Shown: one piece after another, positions 6,203-13,264 of the stretch
Layout: each line of letters begins with the position of its first letter
How positions within the stretch are numbered: position 1 is the first letter of the stretch
Notes under the pieces: model-generated
The model's input: the letters and a program-made list of their open reading frames with translations, nothing else
Told to the model about the DNA's origin: nothing
The model's database searches: none
Made by a program: the position numbers and the translations under genes
Assembly: GCF_010092425.1 (NCBI RefSeq)
Contig: NZ_CP048030.1
Location: forward strand, 2,243,501 to 2,307,500
Direction: 5' to 3'
Length of the DNA: 64,000 nt
Source of the DNA: Sinimarinibacterium sp. NLF-5-8
GTDB taxonomy: Bacteria > Pseudomonadota > Gammaproteobacteria > Nevskiales > Nevskiaceae

Positions 6203-6373
6203 GGTTGTTACTCCCAGATCGGATTGCGCCGGAACGCATCTGCACCCTTGTGCCAAAACGCGAATGAACCGGCAAACCTTGTTCAAGCGGTACATTTTAC
6301 ATAGCTCGGCCTGCAATTGGCACGCGCTTGTTGTGTAATGCGCGCTTCGCTCGCACCTCCGCTGACCACACCC

Positions 6374-7006
6374 ATGACCTCATCGACCGTGAACCCTTTC
6401 ATGGGCGCCCAGTTTTTGCTCTCCGCTGCGCGTCTTGCACAACTGCCGCAGGATCAGCGCCCCGAACTGGCCTTTGCAGGCCGATCCAACGCCGGCAAAT
6501 CCAGCGCCTTGAACCGGCTCTGTGGACACAACGCCCTGGCGCGTGTGAGCAAGACGCCGGGGCGCACCCAGTTGCTCAACGTCTTCGACGTGGCGCTGGG
6601 ACGCCTGATCGACCTGCCCGGCTATGGCTTTGCCAAGGTTTCCAAAGGCCAGCGGCAAAGCTGGGGCGTCTTGATCGGCGATTATCTGGAACGACGCAGC
6701 AATCTGTGTGCCATTGTCCTGATCGTGGATATCCGACATCCGCAGATGGAGGCCGATCAGCAGATGCTGGAATGGGCGATCCATCGCGACCTGCCTTGCC
6801 ATGTGTTGCTGACCAAGGCCGACAAACTGGGCTTTGGCGCCAGCAAGAACACCCTGCTGGCGATGCGTCGCAGCCTGCCCGAAAACGCCGCCGTGAGTGT
6901 TCAATTGTTTTCCTCGGCCAGTGGCGCGGGGGTCGAAGAATGTCGCCAACGCTGCGCCGAGCTGTTGCTTGCAGGCCAGCCACCACATGACGATGCGGGC
7001 ATCTGA
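6374..7006 (+). CDS. engB: Ribosome-biogenesis GTPase EngB/YihA
   Basis: 210 residues from the ATG at 6374; the frame is open from 6317 with an in-frame ATG at 6338, and no clear ribosome binding site decides. GTPase motifs: G1 GRSNAGKS (36-43), the switch region with TPGRTQ, G3 DLPGYGFAKV, G4 LTKADKL, G5 near SSASGAG. EngB assists assembly of the large ribosomal subunit in the cytoplasm. It is divergent from cytochrome c4. In Pseudomonas and E. coli it faces polA across a small RNA; here a three-gene module lies between them. Confidence 0.92.
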   Translation: MTSSTVNPFMGAQFLLSAARLAQLPQDQRPELAFAGRSNAGKSSALNRLCGHNALARVSKTPGRTQLLNVFDVALGRLIDLPGYGFAKVSKGQRQSWGVLIGDYLERRSNLCAIVLIVDIRHPQMEADQQMLEWAIHRDLPCHVLLTKADKLGFGASKNTLLAMRRSLPENAAVSVQLFSSASGAGVEECRQRCAELLLAGQPPHDDAGI

Positions 7007-7098
7007 ACCCGTTCGTGCCATTAATTTTTGATCAAACCATCCGCACATTTATTGCGCACAGTATGATGTGCGCCTTCCATCAACTGCTCCCCAATATC

Positions 7099-7671
7099 AT
7101 GAGGCCTTTGATTCACTCGCTGTGCTGCGCGCTGTTGCTCAGCGCCTGTGTCTCGGCCGCATCCACTGCGGACAATGCCGACTCCGGCACGGGCAAGGCC
7201 ATTTATGGCTGGGTCGAGCCGATCACCATCGGCACACAGGCGCTGCCGCTGCTGGCCAAGCTCGACACCGGCGCGACCACTTCATCGCTGAGCGCAGAGG
7301 CCATCAGCGAATTTGAACGCGACAAGGACGATCACTGGGTTCGTTTCACCGTGCGCGATCACAAGAATCGTCCGGTTGTCTTTGAAGCGCCGCTGGTGCG
7401 TCATGTGCGCATCCGTCGCCACGGCAGCACGCCCCAGCGGCGACCCGTGGTCAAACTCGGGATGTGCGTTGGCACGGTCTACCGCGAACGTCAGTTCACC
7501 CTCACGGATCGTGAAGGCTTTGTCTATCCGGTGCTGGTTGGACGCAATTATCTGGAAGGTCGCATCCTGGTCGATTCTGCGCGCAAGAAAACCACACAAC
7601 CTCACTGCACCCACCCTCGCCCGCAACATGATTCTGCGGAAGAAACCGCCGAGGATCTGGAGGAAGAATGA
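7099..7671 (+). CDS. Retropepsin-like lipoprotein (PF05618 family)
   Basis: 190 residues from the ATG at 7099, preferred because a lipoprotein signal follows (LIHSLCCALLLSAC, lipobox LSAC). The mature part contains LLAKLDTGATTSSL, the Asp-Thr-Gly active-site loop of retropepsin-like aspartic proteases, and later YPVLVGRNYL. The family has been labelled a putative ATP-dependent zinc protease, but the DTG motif and fold point to an aspartic protease. It ends in an acidic tail (AEETAEDLEEE). Its last codons overlap the next start (ATGA at 7668), and it forms an operon with the transglutaminase-like and ligase-like genes. Confidence 0.85.
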   Translation: MRPLIHSLCCALLLSACVSAASTADNADSGTGKAIYGWVEPITIGTQALPLLAKLDTGATTSSLSAEAISEFERDKDDHWVRFTVRDHKNRPVVFEAPLVRHVRIRRHGSTPQRRPVVKLGMCVGTVYRERQFTLTDREGFVYPVLVGRNYLEGRILVDSARKKTTQPHCTHPRPQHDSAEETAEDLEEE

Positions 7672-9197
7672 AACGCTGGCACTTGTTCGTCCTGGTGGTG
7701 TTGCTCGCTGCCAGCAGCCTCTCGCTGATGGTCTACAAGGTGCGCACACTCGGCTATCCGGTGATGCCTGCAGCCGAGGTCGAAAACTGGATCATCGAGG
7801 CACGCCTGGGTTTTGAGCCCAGCGGCGGCGCCATCAAGACCGAGCTGGCGATTCCCAACGACCCCACCGGCTTCAGCATCCTCGACGAAAACTTTGTTTC
7901 GCGCGGCTACGGCCTGCAAACCGAGCGCCGTGGCCCCAACCGCTATGCCACCTGGACCATGCGTCGTCCCAGCGGCAAGCAGGCGTTGTATTACCGTGCA
8001 ACCGTTGCACCGCGCCAGGATGAACGCCTCACCGAAGCGGTGCCCGCGCTCAGCGCCGCACCGGAATACGATGAACTGCAAGCCGCAGCAGTCAATGGGA
8101 TCCTCGACGAAGTTCGCAGCAAATCTGCCGATATCGCCACGTTTTCGTCGCTGATGATGCAGATATTGGCCAGCAACAGCCCCAACGACAATGTGCAATT
8201 GCTGCTGCCCCGGCAAAGCAGCGTCGAAGCGCGCGTGCGCACCGCGATCTTTGTTCTGGCTGGTGCGCGCATCCCGGCGCGGATGGCGCACGGCGTCAGG
8301 CTGATTGATGGCGCCCGCAATCTGGTCGCCGAACCATGGCTGGAAGTCAACAACGGCAGCCGCTGGATCCCGATCGACCCCACCAATGGCAGTCATGGCT
8401 ATCCAGCCGACTTTCTGGTCTGGTGGTATGGCGACCGCCCGGCTTTTGAAACCGAGCGCGCGCGCAGTGTCGATCTGCGATTTTCAGTCACCCAGGTCAT
8501 GGAGCAGGCGCTGGAAACCGCCAGCCGCCAGGCGCAGCTGACCCATTCGCCGCTGACCTCTTATTCACTGATGTCGCTGCCCATTCACACCCAGAACATT
8601 TACCGTACGTTGTTGCTGGTGCCGCTGGGTGCGTTATTGATTGTGGTTCTGCGCAACATCATCGGCATCCAGACTTTTGGCACCTTCATGCCGGTGCTGA
8701 TTGCCCTGGCATTCCGCGAAACCGATCTGGTCGCAGGCGTGGTGCTGTTCAGCGTCATTGTCACCCTGGGACTGGTCGTCCGGTTCTACCTCGAACAACT
8801 CAAACTGCTGCTGGTGCCACGGCTGGCCGCAGTGGTCATCGTGGTGATTCTGCTGATGGCGCTGATCAGTATCCTGTCGCAGCGGATGCGTTTTGAAATG
8901 GGATTGTCGATCGCCCTGTTCCCGATGGTGATCATGGCCATGACCATCGAGCGGATGTCCATCGTCTGGGAAGAAAACGGCCCCGCCAATGCGATCAAGC
9001 AGGGTGTCGGCAGCCTGATCGTTGCCGCCGCCTGCTACCTGACCATGTTCAACGAAGCGCTCGCGCACTTTGTGTTCGTGTTCCCCGAGTCGCTGCTGCT
9101 GGTGCTGGCCGTGACCCTGCTGATCGGCCGCTACACCGGTTACCGTCTCACCGAGCTGACGCGCTTCAACACCATTGTCGAGCACAAAGCCCCATGA
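7668..9197 (+). CDS. Inactive transglutaminase fused to 7 membrane helices
   Basis: 509 residues. An N-terminal membrane anchor (WHLFVLVVLLAASSLSLMV) is followed by a periplasmic transglutaminase-like domain (about 45-265) and then seven hydrophobic helices (about 310-500). The transglutaminase triad is degraded: the region that should carry the nucleophilic Cys reads SSVEARVRTAIF, the usual His of HAWVEV is replaced in EPWLEV, and only the Asp in PIDPTNG remains. This matches the described family of inactive transglutaminases with 7 TM helices. Start and stop overlap the flanking genes (ATGA on both sides), so translation is coupled. A scaffold or sensor role for the neighbouring protease and ligase is inference. 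Confidence 0.9.
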   Translation: MKRWHLFVLVVLLAASSLSLMVYKVRTLGYPVMPAAEVENWIIEARLGFEPSGGAIKTELAIPNDPTGFSILDENFVSRGYGLQTERRGPNRYATWTMRRPSGKQALYYRATVAPRQDERLTEAVPALSAAPEYDELQAAAVNGILDEVRSKSADIATFSSLMMQILASNSPNDNVQLLLPRQSSVEARVRTAIFVLAGARIPARMAHGVRLIDGARNLVAEPWLEVNNGSRWIPIDPTNGSHGYPADFLVWWYGDRPAFETERARSVDLRFSVTQVMEQALETASRQAQLTHSPLTSYSLMSLPIHTQNIYRTLLLVPLGALLIVVLRNIIGIQTFGTFMPVLIALAFRETDLVAGVVLFSVIVTLGLVVRFYLEQLKLLLVPRLAAVVIVVILLMALISILSQRMRFEMGLSIALFPMVIMAMTIERMSIVWEENGPANAIKQGVGSLIVAAACYLTMFNEALAHFVFVFPESLLLVLAVTLLIGRYTGYRLTELTRFNTIVEHKAP

Positions 9198-10195
9198 GCG
9201 GTTCGTTTGCCTGGCCGTGGCAGCTGCGCCGACTCGGCGTGCTGGGCATGAACGCGCGCAATGCGCTGTACATCGGCCCCAACAACCCGCGCCATCTGTA
9301 TCCGCGCGTCGATGACAAGCTGATCTCCAAACAACTGGCCATCGACGCCGGCATCGCCGTTCCCGAGCTGTACGGCGTGATTGCCACCCAATACGAAGCG
9401 CGCCGGATTGACCAGATCGTTGCCGGCCACGATGATTTTGTCATCAAGCCCGCGCGCGGCGCCGGCGGTGAAGGCATCGTTGTCATCACCGGCCGTATCG
9501 GCGACGCCTATCGCAAGGCCAGCGGCGTACCGCTGAGCACCGATGACCTGCGCCATCACATCAGCAACATCCTCTCCGGCATGTACAGCCTCGGCGGCCA
9601 GCCGGATCGGGCGATGGTGGAATACCGCGTCAGCCCGCATCCGATCTTTGACGCCATCGCCTATCACGGCGTCCCCGACGTGCGGGTCATTGTCTACAAG
9701 GGTTTTCCGGTGCTGGCGATGCTGCGCCTGCCCACCCGCATGTCCGACGGCAAGGCCAACCTGCACCAGGGCGCAATTGGCGCAGGGATCGACATCGCCA
9801 GCGGTCAGACCACCCACGGCGTCTGGCGCAATGCCGGGGTGACGCTGCATCCCGACACGCTGTGTCCCATCGCCGGCGTCCAGGTGCCGGACTGGGAAAC
9901 CGTGCTGAGCCTGTCGGCGCGCGCCTATGAACTGACCGAGCTCGGTTATCTGGGCGCCGATATCGTCATCGACCGTCAACGGGGCGCGCTGACGCTGGAG
10001 CTCAACGCCCGTCCCGGCCTGTCGATCCAGATCGCCAATCGCATTGGATTGCGCGCGCGTCTGCAAACCGTGGACCGCGAGGCACCCACCGGCGCCGGTG
10101 CCGCCGAACGCATTGCATTTGCCCAGCAGCGGTTTGGTGTCGCCATCCCAACGCCGACACAAACCCCGGCACAAGCCCCAGCGCCAACGCCCTGA
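9194..10195 (+). CDS. ATP-grasp alpha-L-glutamate ligase-like protein
   Basis: 333 residues. ATP-grasp features related to RimK: FVIKPARGAGGEGI near residues 80-95 (ATP-binding lysine and glycine-rich loop), EYRVSPHPIFD, and LTLELNARPG with metal-binding Glu and Asn near 275. The family (alpha-L-glutamate ligase homologues) should form a peptide-like bond between an amino acid and an unknown acceptor in the cytoplasm. It overlaps the transglutaminase-like gene by four bases and completes a conserved three-gene module. The C-terminus is an odd Pro/Thr/Ala-rich tail (TPTQTPAQAPAPTP), probably disordered. Confidence 0.88.
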   Translation: MSGSFAWPWQLRRLGVLGMNARNALYIGPNNPRHLYPRVDDKLISKQLAIDAGIAVPELYGVIATQYEARRIDQIVAGHDDFVIKPARGAGGEGIVVITGRIGDAYRKASGVPLSTDDLRHHISNILSGMYSLGGQPDRAMVEYRVSPHPIFDAIAYHGVPDVRVIVYKGFPVLAMLRLPTRMSDGKANLHQGAIGAGIDIASGQTTHGVWRNAGVTLHPDTLCPIAGVQVPDWETVLSLSARAYELTELGYLGADIVIDRQRGALTLELNARPGLSIQIANRIGLRARLQTVDREAPTGAGAAERIAFAQQRFGVAIPTPTQTPAQAPAPTP

Positions 10196-10223
10196 ACCCA
10201 ACCGCAGGTTTCTCCGGCACAAA

Positions 10224-10338
10224 TAAAAATACCCGGTGATCTCGGGGGAAGATCACCGGGTCATAGTTTCCGGCGTTGGGGATTGCCGGCCCGCCCAGGG
10301 AGTGAGGCGGGGAGCGGGACAGGGAGAATCGCCGCTCG
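10224..10338 (-). ncRNA. Candidate polA-linked small RNA with three C-rich loops
   Basis: The minus strand between the polA stop and the ligase stop encodes about 113 nt that fold into three consecutive hairpins. Hairpin 1 has stem 10306-10311 / 10290-10295 and loop UCACUCCCUG; hairpin 2 has stem 10285-10289 / 10270-10274 and loop AAUCCCCAAC; hairpin 3 has an 11-bp stem 10250-10260 / 10232-10242 and loop UCCCCCG, and is followed by a U-rich tract, so it should terminate transcription. The 5' part (10311-10329) is also C/U-rich and probably single-stranded. Position and orientation (same strand as polA, downstream of it) equal Spot 42 in E. coli and ErsA in Pseudomonas; the C-rich loops recall Xanthomonas sX13. 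The transcript start is inferred from the promoter. No protein-coding signal was seen here. Confidence 0.72.
10232..10260 (-). terminator. Strong terminator between polA and the ligase gene
   Basis: An 11-bp perfect stem (CCCGGTGATCT / AGATCACCGGG) with a 7-nt loop, followed on the minus strand by TATTTTTATTTG. It is the 3' end of the candidate small RNA and would also stop polA transcripts and, less strongly because no T-run follows on that side, the plus-strand ligase operon. Bases 10371-10510, between the promoter and polA, hold only AT-rich sequence in which I see nothing else. Confidence 0.8.
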
Positions 10339-10343
10339 TAACC

Positions 10344-10370
10344 TTAGATGCGGTCTGCCCGGAAAAGTTC
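10344..10370 (-). promoter_or_regulatory. Sigma-E / AlgU-type promoter of the small RNA
   Basis: On the minus strand GAACTT (10365-10370) and TCTAA (10344-10348) are separated by exactly 16 bases, the spacing and sequence expected for RpoE/AlgU-family promoters. The expected start is about 6 bases downstream, near 10338. It implies that the RNA is part of the envelope-stress response. Confidence 0.65.
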
Positions 10371-10510
10371 AATAGCGGCAGGTAAACAACGCGCGCGCAC
10401 GCTTTTGAAAACCCGATACGACAAATCAATTCTTTCAAAAACAAAGACCTGAAAACTCTGACGTGGCATCAAAACAGCCGTATTTTACCCATTTTTAAAT
10501 TTAAAACCGT

Positions 10511-13264
10511 TTACTTCCAGACACTTGCGCGCCCCATCGGGGTATGTGCATGATCCCACTCAGGGGCAACCCCCCAGTCGGCGACGAGCGGTACCTCCAG
10601 GCGGGTGATTCGGCACATGCGCTCGGCAATCTGCGGCGCCAGCGCCGGCAGCACATCGGCCGCGCCTTCAAAAACCAGCTCGTCATGCACCTGCATGATC
10701 ATCCGCACATCGGCCGCGTGCTGCTGTAAAAACTCGGCGATGTCGATCATCGCCAGTTTGATCAGATCTGCGGCAGTGCCTTGCAGCGGCGCATTGATGG
10801 CGGTGCGTTCCGCATAGTTGCGCAGGTTGGCGTTTTTGGCATTGATGTCCGGCAGGTACAAACGGCGACCAAACAAGGTTTCGACATAGCCGCGCGCGCG
10901 CGCGCTTTGCCGGGTGTCGTCCATGAAACGCTTGACACCCGGATAGCGGCCAAAGAAACGGTCGATGTAGTCCTGTGCCTCATACCGGGTGATGCCCAGC
11001 TGGCGTGCCAGACCAAAGCTGGACATGCCGTAAATCAGGCCAAAATTGATCGCCTTGGCGGCACGACGGCGCTCGCCCGGTACCGCGTCGATCGGATAGC
11101 CGAACACTTCGGCGGCGGTGGCCTGGTGAATGTCGCGGCCGTCGATAAACGCCTGCTGTAGTCCGGCGTCGCCGGAAAAATGCGCCATCAGCCGCAGTTC
11201 GATCTGTGAATAGTCGATCGACAGCAGGGCATTGCCCGGCTCGGCAATGAAGGCCTGACGGATGCGCCGTCCTTCGGCATTGCGGGTGGGGATGTTCTGC
11301 AGATTGGGGTTGGATGATGACAGCCGCCCGGTGGCGGCCACGGCTTGATGGTAGGAGGTGTGGATGCGTCCACTGCGCGGGTTGACGGCCTGTGGCAACT
11401 GCTCGGTATAGGTTGATCGCAGTTTTTGCAGGCTGCGCCAATCCAGGATCAACCGTGGCAGCGGATGTTCGGCGGCCAGTTCATCGAGCACGCTTTCGGC
11501 GGTGGACGGTTCGCCCTTGGGGGTCTTGCCCAGCACCGGCAACTTGAGCTGTTCATACAAGATCACGCCGAGCTGCTTGGGCGACCCCAGATTGAACTCG
11601 CTGCCGGCCTCGGCATGCGCCTGTTTTTCGAGTTCGGCCATGCGTTCGGCAAGCTCGGCGCTGATGGTGTGCAGCAATGCCACATCGACCTTGACCCCGT
11701 GCTGCTCCACCTGTGCCAGCACCGGCACCAGCGGCATTTCGATGCGCTGGTAAACCTCGACCAGCGCCGCTGTCGCCTGCACCTGCGGATACAGCACGCG
11801 ATGCAGCCGCAGGGTGATATCGGCATCTTCTGCGGCATAAGGCGCAGCCTGCGCCAGATCCACCTGATTGAAGGTGAGCTGGTGGCGACCCTTGCCGGCC
11901 ACATCCGTAAACTGGGTGGTGGTATGCCCCAGATACTTGAGCGCCAGCGTATCCATGTCGTGACGGTTGCCTGCGGCATCCAGCACATAACTTTGCAGCA
12001 TGGTGTCGTGCGCCAACCCCTGCACGACGATCCCGTGACGGGCCAGAACGTTCAGATCAAACTTGGCGTTTTGCGCGAGCTTGGCGCGCGCCGGATCTTG
12101 CAGAATCGGCTTGACTGCTTCGATCACCCGCGCGCGCGCCAGCTGTGGCGGCGCGCCGAGATAATCATGCGCCACCGGCACATACCAGCCCGCGCCGGGT
12201 TCGACGGCAAACGCCAGTCCCACCAGCGCCGCATCGTTGGCGTCCAGGCCATTGGTTTCGGTGTCGAAGCAGATCAGCGGGGCTGCCGCCAGCGCGGTCA
12301 GCAAGTCCTGCAACTGCGGCTCGGTGAGCACGGTCGTGACCTCGGTCTGCCGCTGCTCGGCAGGCACCGCCGTGACGTCCGGATCGGCAGAGGCTCCCTG
12401 CGCCGCGCGCGCTTCTGCCAGCAGGCGGCTGAAGCCTTGCTGTTCAAACAATGCCGCCAGGCGCGCGTGATCGGGCGCGCGCGGCGTGAGCTGATCCAGC
12501 GTCGTCGGCAATTCGACATCGGTGACGATGGTGGTCAACCGCCGCGACAGCGGCAGCTGATCCAGATGCGCGCGCAGTTTTTCACCGATCTTGCCGCCGA
12601 TCTGATCCGCGCCGGCGATCAGATCATCCAGCGTTTCAAACTGATTCAGCCACTTGGCCGCCGTCTTGGGGCCAACGCCGGGAACGCCGGGAATGTTATC
12701 CACGGCATCGCCGGTCAGCGCCAGATAATCAATGATCTGCTCGGGCCTGACGCCAAACTTTTCGATGACGCCATCGGGGTCCATCTGGCGGTTTTTCATC
12801 GTATCGAGCAGGTGCACGCGCGCGCTGACCAGTTGCGCCATGTCCTTGTCGCTGGTGACGATCAGCACACTCTGGCCGCGCGCGCTGGCCTGTACCGCCA
12901 GGGTGCCGATCACATCATCGGCCTCCACGCCTTCAACACTCAGCAGCGGCAGCCCCATGCCGTCGATCAGTGTCAGCACCGAAGCAAACTGGCTTTTCAG
13001 ATCATCCGGTGTGGCATCACGATTGGCCTTGTAGGCGGGATACCAGTCATCACGAAAGGTCTTGCCGGGAGCATCAAACACCACGCAGATACGCTCGGGC
13101 GCAAAGTCCTTGAGCAGCTTGCGCAGCATATTGGCCATGCCAAACACCGCGCCGGTGGGTTGCCCCTGGGCATTGGTCAGCGGCGGCAGCGCGTGATAAG
13201 CGCGAAACAACCAGCTCGATCCATCAATCAGAATCAGCGGCTTGGCAGGGTTTTGGCTCATCAC
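10511..13264 (-). CDS. polA: DNA polymerase I
   Basis: 917 residues, full length. The 5'-3' exonuclease domain spans about 1-290 (LILIDGSSWLFRAYHAL, GVEADDVIGTLA, VPGVPGVGPKTA). The proofreading domain (about 310-500) keeps FDTETNGLD and later exonuclease acidic residues, so it should be active. The polymerase domain has motif A LLSIDYSQIELRLMAH, the O-helix (RRAAKAINFGLIYGMSSFG) and motif C MQVHDELVFEG. It removes RNA primers and fills gaps in replication and repair. Two ATG codons open the frame; either could serve. The start is only 9 bases after the lysA stop, so polA belongs to the lptM-lysA transcript, and the small RNA lies just downstream. Confidence 0.97.
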   Translation of the reverse strand: MMSQNPAKPLILIDGSSWLFRAYHALPPLTNAQGQPTGAVFGMANMLRKLLKDFAPERICVVFDAPGKTFRDDWYPAYKANRDATPDDLKSQFASVLTLIDGMGLPLLSVEGVEADDVIGTLAVQASARGQSVLIVTSDKDMAQLVSARVHLLDTMKNRQMDPDGVIEKFGVRPEQIIDYLALTGDAVDNIPGVPGVGPKTAAKWLNQFETLDDLIAGADQIGGKIGEKLRAHLDQLPLSRRLTTIVTDVELPTTLDQLTPRAPDHARLAALFEQQGFSRLLAEARAAQGASADPDVTAVPAEQRQTEVTTVLTEPQLQDLLTALAAAPLICFDTETNGLDANDAALVGLAFAVEPGAGWYVPVAHDYLGAPPQLARARVIEAVKPILQDPARAKLAQNAKFDLNVLARHGIVVQGLAHDTMLQSYVLDAAGNRHDMDTLALKYLGHTTTQFTDVAGKGRHQLTFNQVDLAQAAPYAAEDADITLRLHRVLYPQVQATAALVEVYQRIEMPLVPVLAQVEQHGVKVDVALLHTISAELAERMAELEKQAHAEAGSEFNLGSPKQLGVILYEQLKLPVLGKTPKGEPSTAESVLDELAAEHPLPRLILDWRSLQKLRSTYTEQLPQAVNPRSGRIHTSYHQAVAATGRLSSSNPNLQNIPTRNAEGRRIRQAFIAEPGNALLSIDYSQIELRLMAHFSGDAGLQQAFIDGRDIHQATAAEVFGYPIDAVPGERRRAAKAINFGLIYGMSSFGLARQLGITRYEAQDYIDRFFGRYPGVKRFMDDTRQSARARGYVETLFGRRLYLPDINAKNANLRNYAERTAINAPLQGTAADLIKLAMIDIAEFLQQHAADVRMIMQVHDELVFEGAADVLPALAPQIAERMCRITRLEVPLVADWGVAPEWDHAHTPMGRASVWK

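Follow-up and report, generated by a model that had tools for sequence, protein, structure and literature searches.

A conserved polA-linked small RNA with four C-rich hairpin loops in Sinimarinibacterium sp. NLF-5-8 suggests one RNA family behind anti-hemB, sX13 and ErsA

The window analysed here, a stretch of 64,000 nucleotides of genomic DNA from Sinimarinibacterium sp. NLF-5-8, contains a real and conserved small RNA gene of about 115 nt on the minus strand (10338-10224). The gene is recognised by its fold, conservation, covariation and match to the Rfam family RF02837, with the 5' end placed from the spacing to the -10 element. With good confidence, we regard its product as a trans-acting small RNA of a polA/engB-linked family including RF02837 (anti-hemB), RF02232 (sX13) and RF01719 (ErsA), which would be expressed from its own sigma-E-type promoter and would block G-rich Shine-Dalgarno regions through its C-rich loops.

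Architecture and covariation of the RNA

On the minus strand, a promoter is followed by a G+C-rich stretch with four hairpins and an intrinsic terminator. The initial annotation had described three adjacent hairpins, which are indeed present with loops essentially as quoted, but it overlooked a fourth one located between the promoter and these three. This hairpin 1 (10337-10312) carries CUCCCU in its loop, and its helix is paired in 96.8% of the alignment cells, with double changes in 4 of 6 pairs. Hairpin 2 (10311-10290; 98.4% of cells paired) contains the family hallmark CCCCGCC...CUCCCUGGGCGGG and corresponds to hairpin 1 of RF02837, while hairpin 3 (10289-10270; 96.7% of cells paired) displays the loop AAUCCCCAAC. 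Hairpin 4 (10261-10231) forms the terminator stem below a C-rich loop (the UUCCCCCGA region), with 97.2% of cells paired and double changes in 9 of 11 pairs. As described before, this terminal hairpin leads into a U-rich terminator tail (AUUUUUAUUU, 10230-10221), whose U-run is short; its stem, however, is predicted to comprise 13 bp instead of 11. The C-rich loops of the four hairpins read, in order, CUCCCU, CUCCCUG, UCCCCAA and UCCCCC. The MFE of the RNA is -57.7 kcal/mol compared with -35.0 ± 3.8 kcal/mol for shuffled sequences (z = -5.9), and none of the 200 shuffles folded as well. A small protein encoded within the RNA was rejected, as the ATG ahead of the terminator stem opens a frame of 3 codons only.

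RF02837 matches were found in 55 of 58 family-level genomes, 15 of them above the cut-off, and in 80 of 85 genomes of the order. All four helices covary in relatives. Across 36 aligned copies, 97.3% of the cells pair and double changes occur in 19 of 29 pairs, amounting to 145 double-change cells; shuffling gave 43 and sliding the helices no more than 8. Whereas the stems vary, the loops retain CUCCC, CUCCCUG, CCCC and CCC(CC). This is the combination of compensatory stem changes and conserved C-rich loops that had been proposed as a check on the polA-downstream regions of relatives.

Promoter, genomic neighbourhood and copy number

The putative sigma-E/AlgU-type promoter GAACTT-N16-TCTAA (10370-10344, minus strand) consists of GAACTT at 10370-10365, a spacer of 16 nt and TCTAA at 10348-10344, as initially annotated. 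Its position is conserved in relatives, with the same distance to the RNA in most Nevskiaceae copies, and the genome encodes an RpoE/AlgU protein scoring above the NCBIfam cut-off; the promoter type itself is read from the motif. The whole 3.2-Mb genome contains three exact GAACTTN16-17TCTRA sites, one of which is the RNA promoter. Another is a sigma-E-type promoter sequence within the rpoE gene (L230 1501-1528; G000:C1:1309257-1309284), which precedes an RseA/MucA-like ORF.

Among the class-wide copies, the motif GAACTN-N16/17-TC occurs within 65 nt upstream in 65 of 91, in most cases at -24 to -28 relative to the start of the model, and it is present in 56 of the 79 copies outside the family of the window organism. 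The background amounts to 0.7% of shuffled sequences and one of 91 reverse complements, and an upstream control region contained the motif in 10 of 89 cases, some of which may belong to the tandem copy in front. The sX13 promoter of Xanthomonadaceae has drifted (GAACC, TTATA), and therefore sigma-E control would not be universal in the family.

The RNA lies about 140 nt behind the stop codon of polA (DNA polymerase I; 10511-13264, minus strand), the preceding gene on that strand and its syntenic anchor, and a PolA homologue adjoins the RNA in most relatives. In the first loci inspected, polA was upstream in nearly all and a convergent engB downstream in most. Both the gene map and this synteny bear out the original placement of a small RNA gene downstream of polA on its strand. 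The convergent neighbour in most relatives, engB (yihA; 6317-7006, plus strand), is separated from the RNA in the window by a three-gene block (7015-10195), and one RNA copy is present here. The last gene of this block, encoding an ATP-grasp/RimK-like protein (9194-10195, plus strand), is convergent with the RNA. The same gene also neighbours the RNA at L020, where only one RNA copy was found. Judged by eye, the genes of the block are protease-like, transglutaminase/7TM-like and ATP-grasp.

Solimonas species often possess two RNA copies in tandem, and other genomes of the order possess three to six. Five copies are situated between polA and engB in G080 and six in G081, and a Nevskia-type genome has four. 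Arrays of four to six copies were observed in the polA-engB gap at L153 (1721-2645), L154 (1376-2512) and L157 (2049-4189), and also at L025 (977-1858). A record named Endozoicomonas sp. G2_2 (L111), a name that may be wrong, contains a triple array closely resembling the one in Salinisphaera. Where the upstream sequence was read, most tandem copies have their own promoter. The LhrC1-5 RNAs of Listeria, from an unrelated phylum, resemble this family by description in their several copies, CU-rich pairing regions and envelope-stress induction, the last of which is predicted here. High-scoring copies in five genomes (L016, L026, L029, L145 and L149), whose retrieved flanks showed no polA, are probably dispersed paralogues. 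A second RF02837 match in the window genome (1917565, 28.9 bits) is not confirmed by R1, the model built from Nevskiaceae copies, and is probably due to chance, likewise the matches at L143 and L144.

The proximity to polA could also be explained by a strong polA terminator or 3'-UTR element that itself regulates nothing, since the RNA ends in an intrinsic terminator only about 140 nt past the polA stop codon. However, this explanation is highly improbable in view of the RNA's own promoter, whose distance is conserved, the three additional covarying hairpins with conserved C-rich loops, the tandem copies, which have individual promoters wherever the sequence was read, and the existence of copies away from polA.

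Relationship to known RNA families

An Rfam search of the window at gathering cut-offs gave no match. The RF02837 model aligned end to end (1-81 of 81) to the RNA with 48.2 bits (E 2.4e-10), i.e. 1.3 bits under its gathering cut-off of 49.5, and several same-genus orthologues exceeded this cut-off with 49.8-57.2 bits. The initial annotation had proposed comparison with the covariance models of sX13, ErsA and Spot 42. Here, RF02232 (sX13) reached 21.2 bits (E 0.063) in the window, below its cut-off of 50, while RF01719 (ErsA; cut-off 50) had no match with E of 10 or below in 10100-10520 and RF00021 (Spot 42) none in the window; the near-cut-off match came from RF02837 instead. The element is thus not undescribed, as had been thought, but a close relative of RF02837 and, via intermediates, of sX13 and ErsA.

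RF02837 shares with the window RNA the terminator and the hallmark hairpin CCCCGC..CUCCCUG.GCGGG, and, like the window RNA family, it is linked to engB in three genomes of 6-7 Mb that carry this hallmark. In contrast, its Rfam model begins at hairpin 2, without hairpin 1, and some members lie away from polA/engB. Relatives have the extra 5' hairpin, and the RF02837 model may be truncated. The anti-hemB family is also listed as Burkholderia RNA 7 and as ncS04 of B. cenocepacia, where the RNA is expressed (PMC5688073).

The sX13 RNA of Xanthomonas is located directly behind polA and carries C-rich loops on stable stems, in agreement with the sX13-like, polA-adjacent C-loop architecture proposed initially. 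It differs in having three hairpins and an open 5' end, a drifted sigma-E promoter and independence of Hfq (PMC3771888). ErsA of Pseudomonas (RF01719, Pseudomon-1) shares the polA-engB gap, although engB lies beyond the three-gene block in the window, as well as a sigma-E/AlgU-type (sigma-22) promoter and CUCCC in the terminator loop. However, its middle domain is unstructured, the C-loop pattern of its 5' half is largely lost, and it depends on Hfq (PMC8575079).

In a class-wide sample of 274 genomes, the R1 model had matches in 87, and 54 of 66 inspected matches lie beside polA or engB, with many flanks of only 1.5 kb. In 80 named polA loci searched on both strands, 37 of 38 matches lie downstream of polA on its strand, a result that shows strand and side, not linkage, because these loci were chosen for polA. 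Rfam names the polA-locus matches of Pseudomonas ErsA (RF01719) and those of Rudaea and Alkalisalibacterium sX13 (RF02232), and R1 itself detects sX13 with E 7e-6 to 2e-4. A second model, R2, comprises 93 copies and was meant to omit Pseudomonas and Xanthomonadaceae; its training set excluded G096, G248 and G245, the carriers of above-cut-off RF02232 or RF01719. R2 recovers held-out sX13 loci with E 9e-10 to 3e-6 and ErsA-type Pseudomonas loci with E 7e-8 to 4e-4, which, together with the shared gap and promoter type, upholds the link to ErsA drawn at the outset. Its alignment was fitted to the R1 structure, and class-wide pair counts consequently lean towards that structure. The window RNA, whose sequence was used in model building, has the traits of the R1/R2 family, namely four covarying hairpins, C-rich loops, polA/engB linkage and a GAACTN-N16/17-TC promoter. 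R2 matches in other classes (Alphaproteobacteria-like) were not counted, as the 11 inspected were weak and none lies by polA/engB.

Because R2, built without Pseudomonas and Xanthomonadaceae, finds the polA-linked ErsA and sX13 loci, the families RF02837, RF02232 and RF01719, which are assigned to no clan in Rfam, look like a single ancient polA-engB RNA family. It appears likely that sX13, ErsA, anti-hemB and dozens of unannotated RNAs descend within a single ancient, vertically inherited and mostly sigma-E-driven C-loop family. This family would have become established in the polA-engB gap of Gammaproteobacteria, here taken to include Burkholderiales, and would have grown repeatedly into tandem arrays with as many as six sibling RNAs; Spot 42 may even be a remodelled descendant of it. 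Alternatively, sX13, ErsA and the window RNA could have separate origins at a permissive locus and owe their C-rich loops, a common solution among small RNAs, to convergence; the authors of the sX13 study stressed the absence of sequence similarity among polA-locus RNAs (PMC3771888). We consider such an independent origin unlikely, as R2 finds the held-out loci of Pseudomonas and Xanthomonadales in the orthologous position, the promoter position is shared, and elements of one array in G079 are matched by RF02232, RF01719, RF02837 and R1 alike. We found neither a joint treatment of ErsA and sX13 nor a published unification in the literature covered, which was incomplete, and this is not proof of novelty.

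Spot 42 (RF00021) occupies the same polA-engB position and strand, as the initial annotation had pointed out, but the sequence relationship is marginal: R2 scores 19.3 bits on Chimaeribacter Spot 42 (E 0.022 in 550 kb), with no C-loops aligned. Homology between the two is possible. It is very unlikely that the window RNA is a Spot 42 orthologue regulating carbon metabolism under CRP control, despite the shared position and the R2 score. RF00021 has no match in the window, the C-loops, which Spot 42 lacks, fail to align, and the promoter is of the sigma-E type, whereas Spot 42 is under other control and is repressed by cAMP-CRP.

Proposed mode of action and biological meaning

Envelope stress would free sigma-E (RpoE/AlgU), which would transcribe a compact four-hairpin RNA closed by its own terminator. 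Its C-rich loops, from CUCCCU and CUCCCUG to UCCCCAA and UCCCCC, may then base-pair with G-rich Shine-Dalgarno regions and thereby keep ribosomes from binding, a mechanism shown for sX13 in Xanthomonas. Expression during envelope stress is suggested by the promoter type, in parallel with ErsA, which is induced by AlgU and envelope stress (PMC5819304) and requires Hfq (PMC8575079). By analogy, the loops are expected to pair with G-rich ribosome-binding sites because those of sX13 do so: the C-rich loops of sX13 exert Hfq-independent repression on mRNAs carrying G-rich motifs close to the start codon (PMC3771888). The window genome contains an hfq gene with the ribosome-binding site CAGGGG, and hfq is a target of sX13. 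Nevertheless, conserved targeting of hfq was rejected, as GGGG near the hfq start was found in only 3 of 48 relatives.

The repeated, similar C-rich loops and the tandem gene copies would also fit a sponge that titrates Hfq, ProQ or another RNA-binding protein instead of acting as an antisense regulator. This is improbable, since the loops contain no GGA (CsrA) motifs and, in the relative sX13, loop mutations abolish target-specific, G-motif-dependent repression (PMC3771888). Antisense pairing of the C-rich loops is thus the preferred reading.

The window RNA is close to RF02837, yet formally just below its cut-off, and the broader value lies in the evidence for a common origin, and mostly a common promoter type, of polA-linked C-loop RNAs now listed under three names. 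In 2013, the authors of the sX13 study asked whether the polA loci of other bacteria encode small RNAs that act alike (PMC3771888). For the first half of this question, the present analysis suggests a positive answer, with one lineage and mostly the same stress-type promoter in this gap across many Gammaproteobacterial families. Rfam could join the three families in a clan and lengthen RF02837 at its 5' end, and the tandem sibling arrays offer a natural experiment in small RNA duplication. If the unification is true, the results on ErsA (biofilm, anaerobiosis) and on sX13 (virulence, pairing of C-loops with G-motifs) would inform each other, and the Burkholderia RNA would gain a testable role.
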